Part shown: piece after piece, positions 17,829 through 43,590 of the stretch | Layout: every line of letters starts with the position of its first letter | How positions within the stretch are numbered: the stretch's first letter is position 1 | NCBI GenBank assembly: GCA_902764875.1 | Contig: CACWXP010000002.1 | Location: 124,001-188,000 of the forward strand | Length of the DNA: 64,000 nt | Source of the DNA: an uncultured Eubacteriales bacterium | GTDB taxonomy: Bacteria > Bacillota > Clostridia > Christensenellales > Aristaeellaceae | Direction: 5' to 3' | Notes under the pieces: model-generated | Databases searched by the model: none | What the model was told of the DNA's origin: nothing | The model's input: only the letters and a program-made list of their open reading frames with translations | Translations under genes and position numbers: made by a program

Positions 17829-20800
17829 ATGAAGAAGACCGGAACCTGGAAGAAACTGACCGCGCTTGTGATCACGGCTCTGATGATCCTTTCCGCCGTA
17901 CCGGCGGTGTTTGCCGACGCGCCGACGGACTGGGATGGCTGGGAAGATCTGGAGATATCGCTGAAATGGAACGATGCGGAGGGCAACCCTAACGCTGCTT
18001 CGGCTAAAACTATTCAGGAAATGCCCGGAAGCTATTGGGCAAAAGTTCCCGAGGGCGCTCCGTGGGACGGTTTGACATTAAACATTACGTATCCGGAGCA
18101 TCCCGAATGGCATTTTAAAATGAAAACAGATCCTGTTCGGCTGGATCTGGACTTTACAGAGCTTGGCTTGCTGGACAAGACTACTGATGCCGGCAACGAA
18201 GTGACATTACAGACAGCTTATATTCTGATTCAGGCATATCGGGATGATTCTGATGAGACAGTAGACCTGCGGTTATATCTGTCTTCCGTTGTGGATATTC
18301 CGGAAGCAGTGGAAACGCCGGAACCCACAGAAGAACCGACGGAAGAGCCTACTCCGGAACCCACGGAAGAACCTACGCCGGAACTGACGGAAGAGCCTAC
18401 TCCGGAACCCACGGAAGAACCTACGCCGGAACCGACAGAAGAGCCTACACCTGAACCCACCGAGGAACCCACTGAGGCGCCTGCGGCTGCGCCCACAGAG
18501 GCTCCAACTGAAGCCCCCACGGCAGCACCTACAGAGAATCCAACAGAAGAACCCACGGAAGCTCCCGCGGAAACAAAGAAAACAGAACCAACGGCAGAGC
18601 CGACAGCAGAGCCGAAGTCTGCACCGAAAACCGGGAATGCAAGTGATCTGCCCATTGGTGAATATATCAATCAATATGGAAAAACAAACGCAAAGGTAAA
18701 TTTCCGAGAGGGTCCAGGTACTGATACAACCAAGAAGGACGTTCTGGGACCAGGAACATATATTTATATGATTTCCAATGAAACAGGACACGACAATAAT
18801 CGCTGGACAAAAGTGCTTTACAACGGCGAAGAAGGTTATGTGAGCAGCGGCTTCATCGATGTTCTTGGTGAGACGGAAAGCGAAAAATACAATAACGCAC
18901 AGACCTCTCCCGCTCCGGTTTATCCCACGGTCGAACCTACAGAGGAACCCACAGCGGAACCAACGGAAGAACCTACCGCTGAACCGACAGAAGAACCGAC
19001 GGAAGAACCGACGGAAGAACCGACAGCCGCACCGACTGCAGAACCTACAGAAGAGCCAACCCCCACACCGGCTCCCACAGCTGTACCGGAAAAAGCGGAT
19101 AAACTGTCCAGGGGGCAGGTATTGAACCGGTACGGCGTAACAAGCAACAAAGTCAATTTCAGAGAAGGTCCGTCTTCCAGCAAAGCAAAGAAAATCATCA
19201 ATGAGGGCATTCCAGAGGGTACGTATGTCTGGATGATCATGAACGAAATCGGCCCGGACGACGGGGAAATGTGGACAAAAGTCAACTACAACGGAACAGA
19301 GGGATACGTAAAGAGCGAATTCATCTATGCGATTGATGAAGAAGCCGGAAAGGCATATGATGCAGCTCAGACTTCTCCCGCTCCGCAGTACGATCCCACA
19401 CCGGAACCGACTGCTGAACCGACAGTCGAGCCAACTGCAGAACCGACTGCTGAACCCACTACAGAACCGACCACTGAACCGACAGACACTCCGGAACCGG
19501 AGGTAACAGAGGAACCCGCCACGAAGGCGGAGAAGTTGCCGGTTGGAGAATACTTCAACCGATACGGCGTTATTAACAATGCCAGCGGGAAAAAGGTCAA
19601 CATGCGGGAGAAACCCGACAAGGGATCGACCCAGGTCGGACAGTTCTCGAACGGAGACAGTATCTATGTGATCGATAACGTAAACGGAACAAGCGACGGG
19701 AAAATCTGGGCCCATGTGCTTGTCGGCGATCAGGAAGGATACATCCGGGGCGATTTCGTGGATGTTCTGAACGAAAAAGCCAGCAAAGACTATGACAGTG
19801 CGCAATCCAGCCCGGCACCGGTTTATCCGACATCCACGCCGGTGCCACCCACGATTGAGCCTACGGAAGAGCCGACGGTAGCACCGACGGAAAAGCCCAC
19901 AGAAACACCTACGGAAAAGCCAACGGAGACACCTACGGAGAAGCCCACGGAAACACCTACTGAGACACCAACGGAAAAACCGACAGAAACCCCGACGGAG
20001 AAACCGACGGAAACACCGACTGAAAAGCCGACAGAAGTACCTACCGCTGCACCTACGGAGACTCCGACTGCTGCGCCTACAGATACACCGACACCGACCG
20101 CCACACCGGAACCCGTTCAGCGGACCGGCTATGCCGTTACCATCGGCGACGGCGTGTATGTGCGCAACTATCCGAACAGCTCGAGCGCCATTATTGACGA
20201 GCTGCCGATCAACAAGGTCGTTTACGTGACAGGGCAGAAATACGACAGCGAAACGGCCTGGCATGTGACCCAGTACGACGGAAAATGGGGCTATGTGCGC
20301 GGCGATATGCTGCGGATGATGAGCGAATACGAAGTACTGGCCTATCTGCAGGAAATACAGAAGACCCCAGAACCGGCAGCGACCGATACTCCGGCGCCCT
20401 TCAACGCGGATTCGCTGAGCTGCTACGGATATGTTTCCGCGGATTCCGTGAACTTCCGGAAACAGGCTTCCACACAAAGCGAACGGATTTCCAGACTGAA
20501 GAAGTATGCCCTGTGCCTGATCTATGATACCCAGACGGTGGACAACACCACATGGTACAAGGTTGGATATGAGGGAACCATCGGCTATGTGAACGGGGAT
20601 TACTTCAAGCAGATGACCGTTTCGGAAGCTGAGAAGTTCTTCAATTCGAAAGAATACCTGGAAGGACTGAACAACAACACGACGGAACAGCAACAGCAAG
20701 CCGCCGCAACTCAGCCTAAAACCACAGGGACACCTTCCGGCGTCGTTTCGGCCGAGGATCAGAAGGTTCAGACCTGGACGAACCCGGACAGCGGCGTATC

Positions 20801-35267: not shown

Positions 35268-36098
35268 ATGAAGATGCCGATCCACAACTTTGACGAACAC
35301 TTTGCGGACTTTGCTTCGGCATGGATGAAGGCGCATTCGAACGAATACGCGAATTTTGACGCGATGGAAGACGATCTGCCGAGAATCTATATGGCGTTCC
35401 TGAACACGCGGGCGCCGTGGCTGGGGAGCGTTACACCGGGAAGCTATTTTACGCAGTTTGAGGATCCGAAGGTGCTGGTGGACTGGCTGGCGGCATACTG
35501 CGCAGAGGGGGTTCCCGTTCCGGAGCCTTTGATGGAGCAGATTACGTTTGTCGGGAAGCCGTGCGAAAAGCGGCTGGTGGAGCTTCTGAAGGACGCGGAA
35601 GCGGAAGAAGAGGCGCGGATGACGGCCATCGGGCTGCTGCGGGAGATGGAAAGCACGCAGCCGAAGATGGTGTACATCCAGTGGCAGCTGGAGCGGGAGG
35701 CGAAGGACGAGCTGAAGGACAACGCGCTGGAAAGCCTGATTGACATGGGCGAGAGCGTTGTTCAGCCGATTCTGCAGGTGATCGGGAAAGCGAACGACGC
35801 GGGGCGGGAGGCTTTGCTGGAAGTTTTGACGCATTTTCCGGGGAACGAGCAGATCTTCCGGATTACGCTGGAAGCATTCCGGAAGCAACCGGCGAAGCGG
35901 GCGTTGCTGGCCGGATATCTGGCGAGGCTGGGGGACGACCGGGCGCTGGCGGCTTTAGTTGAAGCGGCGCAGGCGCCGGGGCTTCCCTATCTGACATTTA
36001 TCGAGATTCGGAACGCGATCGAGACGCTGGGCGGCGTTTGTCCGGAGAGGGAATACGACGACGATCCGGAGTATGACGCCCTGCGGGGACTTGAGTAG
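35268..36098 (+). CDS. Helical-repeat protein of unknown function
   Basis: 276 residues, cytosolic, acidic, almost entirely helical. Pairs of helices such as LVELLKDAEAEEEARMTAIG, KDNALESLIDMGESVVQPIL and GREALLEVLTHFPGNEQIFR look like HEAT-type repeats, a fold used for protein binding. No catalytic motif. ATG 35268 has only a modest GAGAG site, so the exact start is uncertain. It ends directly at a palindromic repeat element (36098). Confidence 0.7.
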   Translation: MKMPIHNFDEHFADFASAWMKAHSNEYANFDAMEDDLPRIYMAFLNTRAPWLGSVTPGSYFTQFEDPKVLVDWLAAYCAEGVPVPEPLMEQITFVGKPCEKRLVELLKDAEAEEEARMTAIGLLREMESTQPKMVYIQWQLEREAKDELKDNALESLIDMGESVVQPILQVIGKANDAGREALLEVLTHFPGNEQIFRITLEAFRKQPAKRALLAGYLARLGDDRALAALVEAAQAPGLPYLTFIEIRNAIETLGGVCPEREYDDDPEYDALRGLE

Positions 36099-36155
36099 GG
36101 CGAAGAATCGATGACCGCCGATGGCGGAAATTTCATCGAGTCTGAGATTGCGGAA
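36098..36155. repeat. Palindromic repeat element, short copy
   Basis: Begins at the last base of the previous stop codon. Hairpin GAATCGATGA / TCATCGAGTC with inner CCGCC-GAT-GGCGG. It shares GGGCGA.GAA at one end and TTGCGGAAA at the other with the longer copy at 40231-40338, but lacks that copy's second hairpin. Confidence 0.75.
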
Positions 36156-36214
36156 ACAACGATCGCAGGTTTCAGAAGAATACACGGGTTGATGAGCTTT
36201 CAAGGAGGCGCTTC

Positions 36215-38305
36215 ATGCTTTGTCCGAAATGCGGGTTTTATTCCGAGGGAGAGGAGAGCGTATGCCCGGAATGCGGGGCCATTCTGCGGCATTCCTCGGT
36301 GATTCCGACGGAGGGGCCGCAGGCGATTCGCCAGGGAAAACGCGCGCGGGAAGCTGCTTGGGGCAGGGCGCGGGAGGAAGCAGCGGAGGAAGCCGCAGGG
36401 CGGCGCGCGCGGCGGGGAGACGGGCAGGACCGGCAGGCACCGCGGGTTGCGGACACGCGGGACGCGCGGCGGGGAGACGGGCAGGACCGGCAGGCACCGC
36501 GGGTTGCGGACTCGCGGGACGCGGAGAACGGGGAAAACGGCCGGGGACCGCAGGAATATGGGGACGGGGCGAACGGATTTGACGGACGGACGCGGTTTGG
36601 AACGGAGAATCAGGAGGATTTTGGGGCCGGGAGGAGACAGCGGGGAGCTTTCGACGGGGTTGACGACGAAGGGGACGAAGACGGAGCGGAGACGCTGATC
36701 GAGCGGAGACGGCGGAATTTTTATGACGACGAGGCGGACGAAGAGACCGCGATGCGGTATCTGGGCAGCCACGAGGGAGCGGCGCCGCGGCGGATGGTGA
36801 ACTGGATGAAGTTTGCCATTTTCGGCGCGGTGATCCTGGCGGTGCTGGCGGCGGGCGGATGGCTTTTCCTGAAAAAAACGGACGCGGGACAGCGGTTTCT
36901 GGCCCGGCTTGGGAAAGATGCTTCCTCGGTGGCCTACTGGGCGGTCGGGGATGAAAAAATGAACAGCGGCGACGTGGACGGCGCGATTGAATGCTTTGAG
37001 ACCGCACGGGCGAAGGACGCGGAAGAGGGCGTGATCGACGTGGACGGGCTGCTGGAACTGGGGAGCGCACTGGAGGCGGCGGACCGGACGCGGGAAGCGG
37101 CGGATCTTTATGAGGAGATTTATACACAGACGCCTTCGCGAACGGAGGCCTATGTGAACCACATACGGATTTTGCAGAACAGCGGAAGCGACGCGGACCT
37201 GGTGAAGGCCGGGGAGCTGATGAAACTTGCGTATGAAAAGACGGGGGACAAAACATTCCTGACGCAGCGGACGGACCTGCTGCCGGCAGCGCCGGAAGTG
37301 ACGCCGATCGCGGGATATTACGAAACGAAGCGGACGCTGGTGCTGACGTCGTATCAGGGATTCGACGTTTACTATACGTTTGACGAGAACGCGGAGCTGC
37401 CGGCGGAGGGGATTAAAGCCACGCCGGAGGGCGTGATGCTGGACGAGGGAATTTACAACCTGCGGGCTGTGGCCGTGGACGGAGGGCTGGTTTCGGACGA
37501 ACTGAAGGGGACATGGAAGATTATCATGCCTTCGCCGATGACGCCCAGGGCGACGCTGGCGCCGAACACGTACAAGAGCCGGCAGTCGGTGAAACTGAAG
37601 CCGGGGGTGGACGACGAGCGGGATACCAGCATTGTGATTTACTACACGATCGACGGGTCGATTCCGGATTCGGACAGCCCGATCTTTGACGGGGAGCCGA
37701 TTACGCTGCCGACGGGATGGGTGACGCTGAACGCCTACGCCGTGAACCGGTACCGGAAGCTTTCGAATATGCTGACGGTGAAATACAAAATTGACGTGAA
37801 TCCCTGGCCGAAGACCGCCTTCGGCGAGGAGGACACGATCGGGAAAATTGTGCTGCTGAAGACGACGCAGAGCGAGTTTTCGCATAATTACGGGGAAGGC
37901 GAAGCGGCGGGACCCGTTGAAATGGAAGGGTTTGACACGGAATGCCGGCGGTTTGACTATCCGTGGGGATATGTCGTGATGAACCTGCAGAAGCGGGTTT
38001 GGGTGCTGGCGGAGGTCTGCTTCGGCGATGGCAGCGGAATGACGGGGCCGCGGGACACAAAGATCGGCGACACGGAAGAAGCGGTGGTCGGCGCCTATAA
38101 GGACATGGGGCAGATTGCGAGCAAGAGCGGAAACCGCGGGCTTTACGCGCTGGACAGCGGGGCGAGCGGAAAAATCTGGCTGCAGGAGAACGGGGAAAAG
38201 ATCATCCGGTACCGGTATCCGGTCAGCAGTTCGTGGGTACAGCTGGAGTATGTGGTTTCCGCGGGGGGCACGGTTTCGCGGATTGACTATAAATATATCC
38301 CCTGA
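36215..38305 (+). CDS. Zinc-ribbon membrane protein with TPR and chitobiase-type domains
   Basis: 696 residues, start after AAGGAGG. The N-terminus is a zinc ribbon (CPKCGF, CPECGA), then a disordered Arg/Gly/Glu-rich stretch containing a perfect-looking 57-base tandem duplication (19 residues, about 36411-36523). One transmembrane helix near 200-220 (FAIFGAVILAVLAAGGWLF). Outside, TPR-like helices are followed by beta domains with YYTIDGSIPDSDSP, the CHB_HEX_C-type motif, and an unfamiliar C-terminal domain. No enzyme motif. The topology, cytosolic zinc ribbon plus surface domains, is shared with the protein at 44506-46284. Confidence 0.75.
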   Translation: MLCPKCGFYSEGEESVCPECGAILRHSSVIPTEGPQAIRQGKRAREAAWGRAREEAAEEAAGRRARRGDGQDRQAPRVADTRDARRGDGQDRQAPRVADSRDAENGENGRGPQEYGDGANGFDGRTRFGTENQEDFGAGRRQRGAFDGVDDEGDEDGAETLIERRRRNFYDDEADEETAMRYLGSHEGAAPRRMVNWMKFAIFGAVILAVLAAGGWLFLKKTDAGQRFLARLGKDASSVAYWAVGDEKMNSGDVDGAIECFETARAKDAEEGVIDVDGLLELGSALEAADRTREAADLYEEIYTQTPSRTEAYVNHIRILQNSGSDADLVKAGELMKLAYEKTGDKTFLTQRTDLLPAAPEVTPIAGYYETKRTLVLTSYQGFDVYYTFDENAELPAEGIKATPEGVMLDEGIYNLRAVAVDGGLVSDELKGTWKIIMPSPMTPRATLAPNTYKSRQSVKLKPGVDDERDTSIVIYYTIDGSIPDSDSPIFDGEPITLPTGWVTLNAYAVNRYRKLSNMLTVKYKIDVNPWPKTAFGEEDTIGKIVLLKTTQSEFSHNYGEGEAAGPVEMEGFDTECRRFDYPWGYVVMNLQKRVWVLAEVCFGDGSGMTGPRDTKIGDTEEAVVGAYKDMGQIASKSGNRGLYALDSGASGKIWLQENGEKIIRYRYPVSSSWVQLEYVVSAGGTVSRIDYKYIP
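36411..36523 (+). repeat. 57-base tandem duplication inside the zinc-ribbon gene
   Basis: Two adjacent copies starting with GGCGGGGAGACGGG at 36411 and 36468 encode RRGDGQDRQAPRVAD-T/S-RDA twice. In frame and nearly identical, so recent. Confidence 0.85.
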
Positions 38306-39730: not shown

Positions 39731-40753
39731 TCAGAATGGGGGATTGATTTTGAAGGTTTTGCCGTCGAGGTTGGGCAGCTGCCCTTCGGTGTGCAGGGTG
39801 AGTTCGGCGGCGCAGAGCTTCAGGGAACGGGATTTCTGCAGGCGGTTAAAGGATCGGTCGCCGTAGAGATCGTCGCCGAGGACGGGATGGCCCAGGGCCG
39901 CGAGATGGGCGCGGATCTGGTGGGTGCGGCCGGTGATCAGGTGCACCCGGAGGCGGGAAACGGGGCCGGCGGACAGGGTTTCATAGCCGGTGGTGATGGG
40001 CCGGGCGCCGGGGCGGTTCTGGTCGAGAATTTGGACGACACCGCGGGCGGCGTCCTTGAGGAGAAAGGCGCTGCAGGTGGCGGCGGGGGGCTTCGGGATG
40101 CCGCGGACGAGGCAAATGTAATATTTTTCGACGGTGCGCTGTTTGAAGGCTTCGAGAAGGACGGCATGGGCGCGGGGGTTTTTGGCGAAGAGACACAGGC
40201 CGCAGGTTTTGTTGTCGAGACGGTGGACAGGGGCGAGGAACCGATGACCGCCAGTGGCGGATATTTCATCGGTTCCGAGGTCAACCGAAACAAGCGAGCT
40301 GCCCAGTGGGCAGTCGCGCCGATTGAGGTTGCGGAAAGGAAATGCGGCGCCGGGTTCGCCGGCGGCGGGAGGTTCGAAGGAGTGGGCGGCGGTGGAGAGA
40401 ATGGGACGGGATTGGGTATGGAGGCGGCAGAGATCTGTCAGGGAGAGGGAGCCGGGTTCGTCGGATTCCACGCTGACGCCGGCGGGTTTGTTCACCAGGA
40501 GGACGTCTTCATCCTCGTAAACGATGCGGAGGACGGGAGATTCCTCATGGGAGGCGGGCAGAAAAACAGAGAGAGTCTGACCGGCATGCACCGGGGTGTC
40601 CCGATCCGCGCGGACGCCGTCCAGCTTTACATCGCGGGCGGCGAAGATTTTTCGGAGGACGCTCTCGGGCAGGGACGGCAAAAGCCGACGCAGAAACAGG
40701 CCGGTTTTCATGCCTTCGGCATCGGGCGGAATAACGGTTTTTCGGACAGGCAT
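39731..40753 (-). CDS. RluA-family pseudouridine synthase carrying an in-frame palindromic insertion
   Basis: Converts uridine to pseudouridine in RNA. 340 residues. An S4-like N-terminal part (SVLRKIFAARDVKLDGV) precedes the catalytic domain with DVLLVNKPAGVSVES, catalytic Asp180 in PVHRLDNKTCGL, and GRTHQIRAHLAALGHP. Residues about 139-174, just before HRLD, have no counterpart expected in the family and are encoded by the palindromic element at 40231-40338. The reading frame stays open through it. The true substrate (23S rRNA or tRNA) cannot be told. Activity may survive because the insertion falls in a variable loop (inference). Confidence 0.87.
   Translation of the reverse strand: MPVRKTVIPPDAEGMKTGLFLRRLLPSLPESVLRKIFAARDVKLDGVRADRDTPVHAGQTLSVFLPASHEESPVLRIVYEDEDVLLVNKPAGVSVESDEPGSLSLTDLCRLHTQSRPILSTAAHSFEPPAAGEPGAAFPFRNLNRRDCPLGSSLVSVDLGTDEISATGGHRFLAPVHRLDNKTCGLCLFAKNPRAHAVLLEAFKQRTVEKYYICLVRGIPKPPAATCSAFLLKDAARGVVQILDQNRPGARPITTGYETLSAGPVSRLRVHLITGRTHQIRAHLAALGHPVLGDDLYGDRSFNRLQKSRSLKLCAAELTLHTEGQLPNLDGKTFKINPPF
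40231..40338. mobile_element. Palindromic element inserted in frame in the rluA-like gene
   Basis: About 108 bases, a multiple of three. Hairpin 1: arms GGAACCGATGA (40237-40247) and TCATCGGTTCC (40266-40276) around CCGCC-AGT-GGCGG. Hairpin 2: CTGCCC-AGT-GGGCAG with GCGA/TCGC extension (40294-40317). Ends match the copy at 36098-36155. Non-autonomous: no transposase in the window. Confidence 0.75.
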
Positions 40754-40874: not shown

Positions 40875-41927
40875 TTACTGCACCCGGGAGGAGGAGAACC
40901 AGATCCAGCGCGGGATGCGGGTGCTGAGATCCTCAAGGGCTTTCAGCATGTCGGGAGTCGGGAGCGAAACGAGCAGGGAGGAAAGGACTTCTTTCATGTC
41001 GGTGAAGGAGACATCCTGCTTGGCCAGGATGATCAGGTCTTCCACCGCGTCCTCCGGGGTGATTTCCGGACGGACGGCGTCGGCGATGGAGAAGAGCATC
41101 TGCTCATAAAGCGGGTTTTCCAGATCTCCGATGGAATCGGAAGCTTCACGGAGGGCTGCGGCGCTCATTTCACTGCAGGCGTCGGCGGCAGCGGGCAGGA
41201 GACGGAGCATGGCGGTGGGGTCGGCCAGGCCGGGATGAATCAGGATCAGACGGCCGGCTTCATCAAAAACGCAGTCGAAGGCAGAGAACAGGAACCGCTC
41301 GATCAGGTCGGGGCGGTTTTCGGCATAGGTATCCTTCAGGAGCGACTGCAGATGGAGCATCGGGGCTTCGGCCCGGGTGAGGCCCATGAGGTAGAGGGAA
41401 TTATCGATATTCTCCTGAACCTGTTCCACGGCGTCGCGGATTTTTTTGTGGCCATCACCGGCAAGGAGCAGCAGGGCGGAAGCGCACAGCTGGTGGGGCA
41501 TGAAGAGAACGCGGACGCCGTTTTGATTTTCCAGGCGGCACCAGAGACGGCGCACCAGGGAGGCGGCGGGGATCAGTTCATCCCAGTCATGAAGGGCCAG
41601 CTTTCCGCCGAAAAGCACCAGACGGACCAGGAGATCGTGCTCTTCAGGGGAGAGCAGGGCCAGTTCCGGCGCGAAGGAAGAGAGGACCCGGACGCGGAGC
41701 TGCTCCACGGTATGCAGGGTCCATTCCCGGGAAGACGCATCCTCCCGGGGAAAGTAAGAAAGTTTGTAGAAGGTTTCGGCGTCCGCGTCGGTGCAGGCGG
41801 CGTCAAAAAGGCAATACGCAGGAAGGCCTGCGAGAGATTTCTCGCAAGCCTCCAGCTGTTGGGTCCGCAAAACGCTCATGGTTTTGTCGGCCCAGTGATA
41901 CGGGGATGTGTTTCCGGTTCTTAGCAT
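40875..41927 (-). CDS. Uncharacterised cytosolic protein
   Basis: 350 residues from ATG 41927, which has GAAAGGAC 5 bases upstream. The frame remains open a further 63 codons through an 18-base minisatellite, but that stretch has repeat-derived SEPAS sequence and no ribosome site, so I exclude it. The protein is mostly helical with no signal peptide (LEACEKSLAGLPAYCLFDAA; RVLSSFAPELALLSPEEHDL). I do not recognise a family. 121 bases without features separate it from the rluA-like gene. Confidence 0.65.
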   Translation of the reverse strand: MLRTGNTSPYHWADKTMSVLRTQQLEACEKSLAGLPAYCLFDAACTDADAETFYKLSYFPREDASSREWTLHTVEQLRVRVLSSFAPELALLSPEEHDLLVRLVLFGGKLALHDWDELIPAASLVRRLWCRLENQNGVRVLFMPHQLCASALLLLAGDGHKKIRDAVEQVQENIDNSLYLMGLTRAEAPMLHLQSLLKDTYAENRPDLIERFLFSAFDCVFDEAGRLILIHPGLADPTAMLRLLPAAADACSEMSAAALREASDSIGDLENPLYEQMLFSIADAVRPEITPEDAVEDLIILAKQDVSFTDMKEVLSSLLVSLPTPDMLKALEDLSTRIPRWIWFSSSRVQ

Positions 41928-42020
41928 AAAAGTCCTTTCATGGTACGGGCGGGCCCCCGGCGGGCTCGCGGGTGCTCGCGGGCTCGCCGGGGATTGCCGG
42001 GGGCTTGCTGGCTCACCGGG

Positions 42021-42128
42021 GCTCGCGGGCTCGCTGCGGCTCGCAGGTTCGCTGTGGCTCGCGGGCTCGCTGTGGCTCGCGGGCTCGCTGCGGCTCGTGG
42101 GCTCGATGTAGCTCACGGGCTCGCGGGG
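42021..42128. repeat. 18-base minisatellite
   Basis: Five full units of the type GCTCGCGGGCTCGCTGTG (42021-42110) plus a partial one, with degenerate related sequence back to about 41960. It fills the intergenic space directly downstream of ilvE. Confidence 0.85.
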
Positions 42129-43365: not shown

Positions 43366-43590
43366 GGAGGTCTTCCAACGGGAAGGTGAACCGCAGGGGA
43401 ACTACAGCTCATCCGGGGTTTTCCAGCGGGAAGGTGAACCGCAGGGGAACTACAGCTCGTCCAGGAGGTCTTCCAGCTGGAAGGTGAACCGCAGGGGAAC
43501 TACAGCTCGTCCAGGAGGTCTTCCAGCGGGAAGGTGAACCGCAGGGGAACTACAGCTCGTCCAGGAGGTCTTCCAGCGGGAAGGTGAAGG
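43366..43590. repeat. 50-base tandem repeats derived from the 3' end of the DUF3298 gene
   Basis: TACAGCTC recurs at 43403, 43451, 43501 and 43551 (spacing 48, 50, 50). The last copy is the genuine gene end, encoding FPLEDLLDEL and stop on the minus strand; the others repeat that end, including the stop codon, downstream of the gene. Confidence 0.88.

Follow-up and report, generated by a model that had tools for sequence, protein, structure and literature searches.

In this study, we asked what a palindromic stretch of DNA represents when it lies within an open protein gene of a clostridial genome. Palindromic DNA that proteins tolerate is known above all from Rickettsia and Wolbachia, obligate intracellular bacteria. 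All positions refer to the window, the whole 64,000-nt stretch of DNA analysed. Our findings make it very probable that this DNA, about 104 nt long, is a palindromic mobile element, selfish and non-autonomous. The initial annotation had described 108 bases (36 codons), ending at 40338, with two hairpins in frame in an rluA-like gene before the HRLD motif; the hairpins, the frame and the placement just upstream of HRLD stand, while the length becomes 104 nt, or about 34 codons, the last four bases being flank (table 1). In a search of the window the covariance model (R1) found the element at E 8.7e-24, and its fold energy, -50.8 kcal/mol against a mean of -30.6 in shuffles, was equalled by none of 200 shuffled sequences. 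The outer stem of the second hairpin differs in sequence among copies, yet complementarity is kept. Two further hits in the window have E 0.4 and 0.63, and a second significant match is found solely at 36098, the related copy which the initial annotation had recognised; it is real but partial, and starts at the stop codon of the open reading frame at 35268-36098. An Rfam scan of the window gave no family at threshold, and a tRNA scan found none.

Table 1. Positions in the window of the double-hairpin element, its parts, its host gene and its second copy
Feature	Position	Strand	Evidence
Full-length double-hairpin element, in frame in RluA-type gene	40231..40334	-	Model R1, 123.7 bits; fold z -6.55
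First hairpin: outer pairs CAACC...GGTTG, inner stem CTGCCC ACT GGGCAG	40282..40331	-	Consensus structure, pair counts
Second hairpin: GGAACCGATGA, 5-nt bulge, CCGCC ACT GGCGG, TCATCGGTTCC	40237..40276	-	Consensus structure, pair counts
Host gene, RluA-type pseudouridine synthase, 340 aa	39731..40753	-	ORF, Pfam PF00849, orthologues, AlphaFold model
Second copy, degenerate: second hairpin retained, first mostly lost	36098..36187	-	46.4 bits; sequence

The product of the host gene matches Pfam PF00849 (E 3.7e-27). As the initial annotation had read it, the frame stays open through the element (...GAAFP-FRNLNRRDCPLGSSLVSVDLGTDEISATGGHRFL-APVHRLDNK...) and the protein carries an extra peptide, residues 140-173, with HRLD beginning at residue 177. 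RluA matches at the limit used were obtained in 35 of the 45 genus genomes, and 30 loci (the window gene included) plus two named relatives were read; the two nearest named records are both labelled 'Clostridia bacterium', from rumen or omasum. The peptide occurs in none of the 29 other same-genus loci, as exemplified by the insert-free orthologue of L137, LLFPPAPCHRLDNKT. One could suppose that the additional residues are an ordinary loop of an RluA subfamily, given that the site varies in length: G031 (L131) has a long loop there unrelated to the element, and thus the insertion site is naturally variable. Nonetheless, 29 orthologues lack the peptide, and copies of its DNA recur at other places in the genome; the likelihood of an ordinary loop is negligible, and the dispersed copies rule it out. 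In the AlphaFold model (35 sequences) pLDDT is at least 90 at 233 of the 340 residues and falls below 50 at 118-167, a range that takes in the larger part of the insert as well as the preceding native residues 118-139, which are equally low; within the insert a low value is expected, as it is covered by no aligned relative. The insert is predicted to be a disordered loop, for which the model is support, not proof.

Related copies are found throughout the genome and the genus. At E<=0.01 the model has 8 matches in the window's own genome, 8 in G012, 37 in G022, 40 in G035 and 43 in G042, of which 7, 8, 25, 27 and 39, respectively, reach at least 70 bits; the own genome is 93% complete and G022, G035 and G042 are nearly complete, in a collection made up mostly of draft assemblies. 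The initial annotation had noticed two copies, and neither a restriction of the genome to those two nor a peptide common to all orthologues was found. By blastn, six good copies were recovered in the own genome, and matches, some of them weak only, in 40 of 41 genus genomes (own genome included). Beyond the genus, matches occurred in 31 of 200 genomes and 9 of 50 genera of the family sample, in 4 of 248 genomes of the order sample, all four of the own genus, and in 1 of 398 genomes of the phylum sample, the own genome itself; the absences in these samples are soft, because just 10-19 candidates were scored per genome (10-16 for order and phylum). Collections of phage and plasmid records gave no blastn match to the element. 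Some of the low-scoring matches to the model (about 22-35 bits) come from a sister repeat family, located in G022:C1 2.20-2.60 Mb and G035:C1 1.92-2.32 Mb (L188-L246), which has the 5' end CCGCAACCTCAATCG in common with the element and a different 3' module ending CGCTTCCCTCGCTCCCC; modules may have been exchanged between the two. A subfamily ending TTCATCC or CTCATCC is represented by L004 in the own genome and, by eye from flanking DNA, by L027, L037, L042 and L046.

Indirect evidence of movement comes from G022 and G035, compared over a syntenic 400 kb in which aligned blocks are mostly 91-95% identical. Three of the 11 full-length G022 copies face clean empty sites in G035, where the net insertion amounts to 102, 103 or 104 nt. 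A fourth copy clearly occupies the same place in both species, and the remaining seven fall within larger differences or within inverted segments. One composite of element and flank (L189:15208-15312, G035:C1:2264319-2264423) seems inverted between the species. The consensus begins with CCGCAACC and ends with TTCGCCC, whose complement is GGGCGAA, so that by eye terminal inverted repeats are absent; the enterobacterial RU-1/2/3 group has them. No target duplication beyond CC was found, the flank matches of 95 copies being not above those of shuffled flanks. The element also forms tandem arrays in which neighbouring copies can share the terminal CC, as do the adjoining copies in L036, with one CC in common.

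The covariance model was built on 36 of 39 located copies (L004 and two tandem copies of L039 were left out as degenerate), and stem changes were counted in a second alignment, for which 97 loci were chosen and every match at E<=1e-9 was taken. It holds 109 matches and 96 distinct copies, 57 of them 104 nt and 31 of them 105 nt long. In this alignment 98.3% of cells are paired, and in 30 of the 35 pairs both partners have changed. The covariation score reaches 0.506, whereas shuffles give 0.170 and slid controls no more than 0.072. Cells with a double change that stay Watson-Crick number 575 among the distinct copies; without one consensus G-U/G-C pair there are 571, and the mismatched cells comprise 21 with G.T, 19 with A.C and 35 of other kinds. 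Under selection on one RNA strand, one of G.T and A.C should be commoner than the other, and their equal rarity therefore indicates a DNA hairpin or arm-to-arm correction. The paired stem changes and this strand symmetry point, as an argument made from sequence, to a DNA hairpin as the moving form. The matched changes could instead stem from palindrome correction, with template switching within the hairpin in place of selection on a transposition substrate, a possible though somewhat unlikely explanation: such correction would likewise leave strict complementarity with very few intermediates, but it accounts for the covariation and not for the spread, and is compatible with a mobile element. 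The same symmetry bears on whether the hairpins have been domesticated for regulation, as a terminator, mRNA stabiliser or attenuator, the coding copies being accidental. Four of the five own-genome copies outside genes (L003, L004, L005, L006 and L177) do overlap or touch a gene's stop codon, by 1 to 14 bases, that of L177 lying about 30 nt downstream of one, and the L004 copy overlaps the stop codon of a gene for a transporter permease (PF00528) and precedes a gene that by eye resembles one for a solute-binding protein. Yet the rarity of G.T equals that of A.C, contrary to what selection on one RNA strand predicts, copies lie in both orientations and in tandem, and some sites are empty in a close relative, all of which renders a regulatory origin quite improbable. 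The L004 copy perhaps affects the relative expression of the permease and the putative solute-binding gene.

The initial annotation had suggested searching for the same peptide in unrelated proteins. In-frame copies were found in seven: RluA, a VWA protein, MutS2, a head maturation protease, a Neck1/tail completion protein, a phrog_408 protein and an endolysin. In the VWA-domain protein of the own genome the element lies at the C-terminal tail, and the stop still overlaps the start of the next gene; the three close, readable orthologues (L341, L345, L346) have a short tail after EFILAREPW or EFLLAREPW, six others (L348-L353) a different, shorter end and eight no readable tail. The MutS2 segment from RHPLI to TGPNTGGKT measures 35 residues in 17 of 28 readable loci. 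In G030 it reaches 171, exactly 136 above the common form, through four tandem 102-nt units in frame before Walker A, and in G042 its 78 residues correspond to one element unit and a short linker. Nine other loci have 37-80 residues without the element (63-80 before Walker A in L311-L314 and L316), and the site thus tolerates length change. The phage-type head maturation protease, the Neck1/tail completion protein (two paralogues in G012) and the phrog_408 protein hold the element in frame, calls that rest on extra length against profiles and on ORF continuity. The endolysin occurs on two IMG/VR contigs, identical in sequence there, with the element between a conserved N-terminal region and the peptidoglycan-binding domain, where a relative (L362) has a short linker instead. 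L032, L026, L034 and L183 were also flagged as frame-spanning and were not counted, as they look like upstream or unconfirmed frames.

The seven proteins do not read the element alike. Frame +2 is used in RluA and the endolysin, +3 in Neck1, -2 in MutS2, the protease and phrog_408, and -3 in the VWA protein, the consensus being open in three of six frames (+2, +3 and -2); given that different proteins read different frames, the peptide sequence itself is not what is selected. The copies checked, one for each gene, are all 104 nt long, compared with 57 of the 96 distinct copies overall, which fits the survival of insertions adding 102 nt. Most copies are intergenic. Among the 25 full-length copies of G022 there is no clearly intragenic one: some open frame of at least 90 codons contains 15 of them, the three longest without a Pfam match and the other 12 judged on length and neighbours alone. 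A first survey of 73 element places (with at least five repeated loci) had 11 copies judged in frame, in six kinds of gene. Coding insertion is therefore a minority outcome. Nor does the element preserve the frame by design, given that the net 103 and 104 nt at two of the three empty sites cannot be divided by three. The in-frame copies represent survivors and do not prove that a mechanism maintains the frame.

Overall, we suggest that the element would move at short CC/GG targets in the form of a DNA hairpin, single-stranded or extruded, which an enzyme acting in trans would recognise. Within genes, a copy would survive if it adds a net 102 nt (34 codons) and brings no stop into the frame that is read, and would be retained where a flexible 34-residue stretch harms little, as in a surface loop, an interdomain linker or a C-terminal tail. 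Phages and prophages carry the element and would be a likely route between genomes. The enzyme might be sought among the RAYTs (IS200/IS605-type HUH transposases) of the same genomes, which would make the element REP/REPIN-like. Bulged hairpins, absent terminal inverted repeats and tandem copies agree with such an origin, as do Y1 transposase matches in 28 of the 45 genus genomes and, in G042, an element that follows the matched domain in an IS200-type gene at a distance of 214 nt. No clear link between element and Y1/RAYT genes emerged, however, from the own genome, the 45 genus genomes and the 23 Y1 genes inspected. The own genome, 93% complete as it is, has no Y1 match, and among the 23 genes (from 67 matches listed) only one, of IS200 size, has the element within 300 nt, while the 18 of RAYT size are by eye flanked by other inverted repeats with GGGAC motifs. 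Copy number bears no clear relation to Y1 count (Spearman 0.25, p 0.11, n=41; Mann-Whitney p 0.44), although the copy numbers are blastn counts, which are lower bounds for copy-rich genomes; a weak positive trend is possible. The consensus also lacks a GTAG or CGTC end tag, and mobilisation by a RAYT is, on balance, unlikely. The inverted repeats flanking RAYT-size Y1 genes (L269-L278, L283-L285, L287, L288) are often GGGACGGTTC / ACCGTCCC, the latter containing CGTC (by eye). CGTC repeats without a transposase are described in the available text of an earlier report (PMC3733652).

How the element relates to known systems depends on the feature compared. In the available parts of the literature, Rickettsia palindromic elements (RPEs) and those of Wolbachia are about 100-150 bp, dispersed, and placed both between genes and in frame within unrelated genes (PMC10969869, PMC3767692), with nearly half of the first Rickettsia RPEs intergenic (PMC10969869). 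The present element resembles them in being palindromic, of similar size (104 nt), repeated (five genomes have between 8 and 43 matches each) and in frame in unrelated proteins, a likeness by description. It differs in its clostridial host, its two hairpins within 104 nt, the minority of intragenic copies, the in-frame tandem arrays and its occurrence on phage contigs too. The Rickettsia-RPE-like label of the initial annotation thus holds for an in-frame palindromic element in unrelated proteins, and less well in that most copies are intergenic and that the type had already been reported outside Rickettsia, as seen in parts of three reports (PMC2759123, PMC3733652, PMC2996958), one of which mentions Wolbachia plus an archaeal case (PMC2996958). 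In the available text on REP, BIME and REPIN sequences, REPs lie within genes of several species, many of them replication or repair genes, and the present element has in common with the group hairpins, dimers, a frequent position just 3' of genes, where stop codons are supplied, and occasional intragenic copies (PMC3733652); it is longer, its consensus lacks the GTAG/CGTC end tag, and it has no link to the inspected RAYT genes of the genus. The enterobacterial RU-1/2/3 elements, in the available account, are likewise MITE-like, of 103 to 168 bp, with open frames and intragenic copies (PMC2759123), whereas the consensus here is without terminal inverted repeats. From a MITE it departs in missing both terminal inverted repeats and target duplication, its ends having at most CC in common. 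Yeast mitochondrial GC clusters (GC42) and mitochondrial double-hairpin elements, in the part of the source available, are similarly short hairpin DNA with merging copies and direct end repeats of 2-3 nt, AG or ACT in the GC clusters and CC here (PMC4478555); GC42 is organellar, 42 nt long and mostly intergenic. The open-licence literature searched reported no element of this kind in Clostridia.

The hosts of the element are rumen Clostridia, of which some have genomes of one or two contigs, and it is present on phage contigs too. Should relatives be in culture, its movement, target choice and effects on proteins such as RluA and MutS2 would become testable outside obligate intracellular bacteria. 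A bolder and rather doubtful proposal is that phage-carried DNA recognised by its hairpins, mobilised in a new way (neither by RAYT/IS200 nor by an inverted-repeat transposase), may generate 34-residue flexible linkers in proteins of bacteria and phages, linkers that can be stacked in frame, as with the four units in MutS2, lengthening linkers stepwise. The window also holds short tandem repeats: two 57-nt units at 36400-36513 within the open reading frame 36215-38305, 18-nt units at 41955-42127 within 40875-42116, units of about 50 nt at 43369-43588, and 12-nt repeats at 18276-20105.
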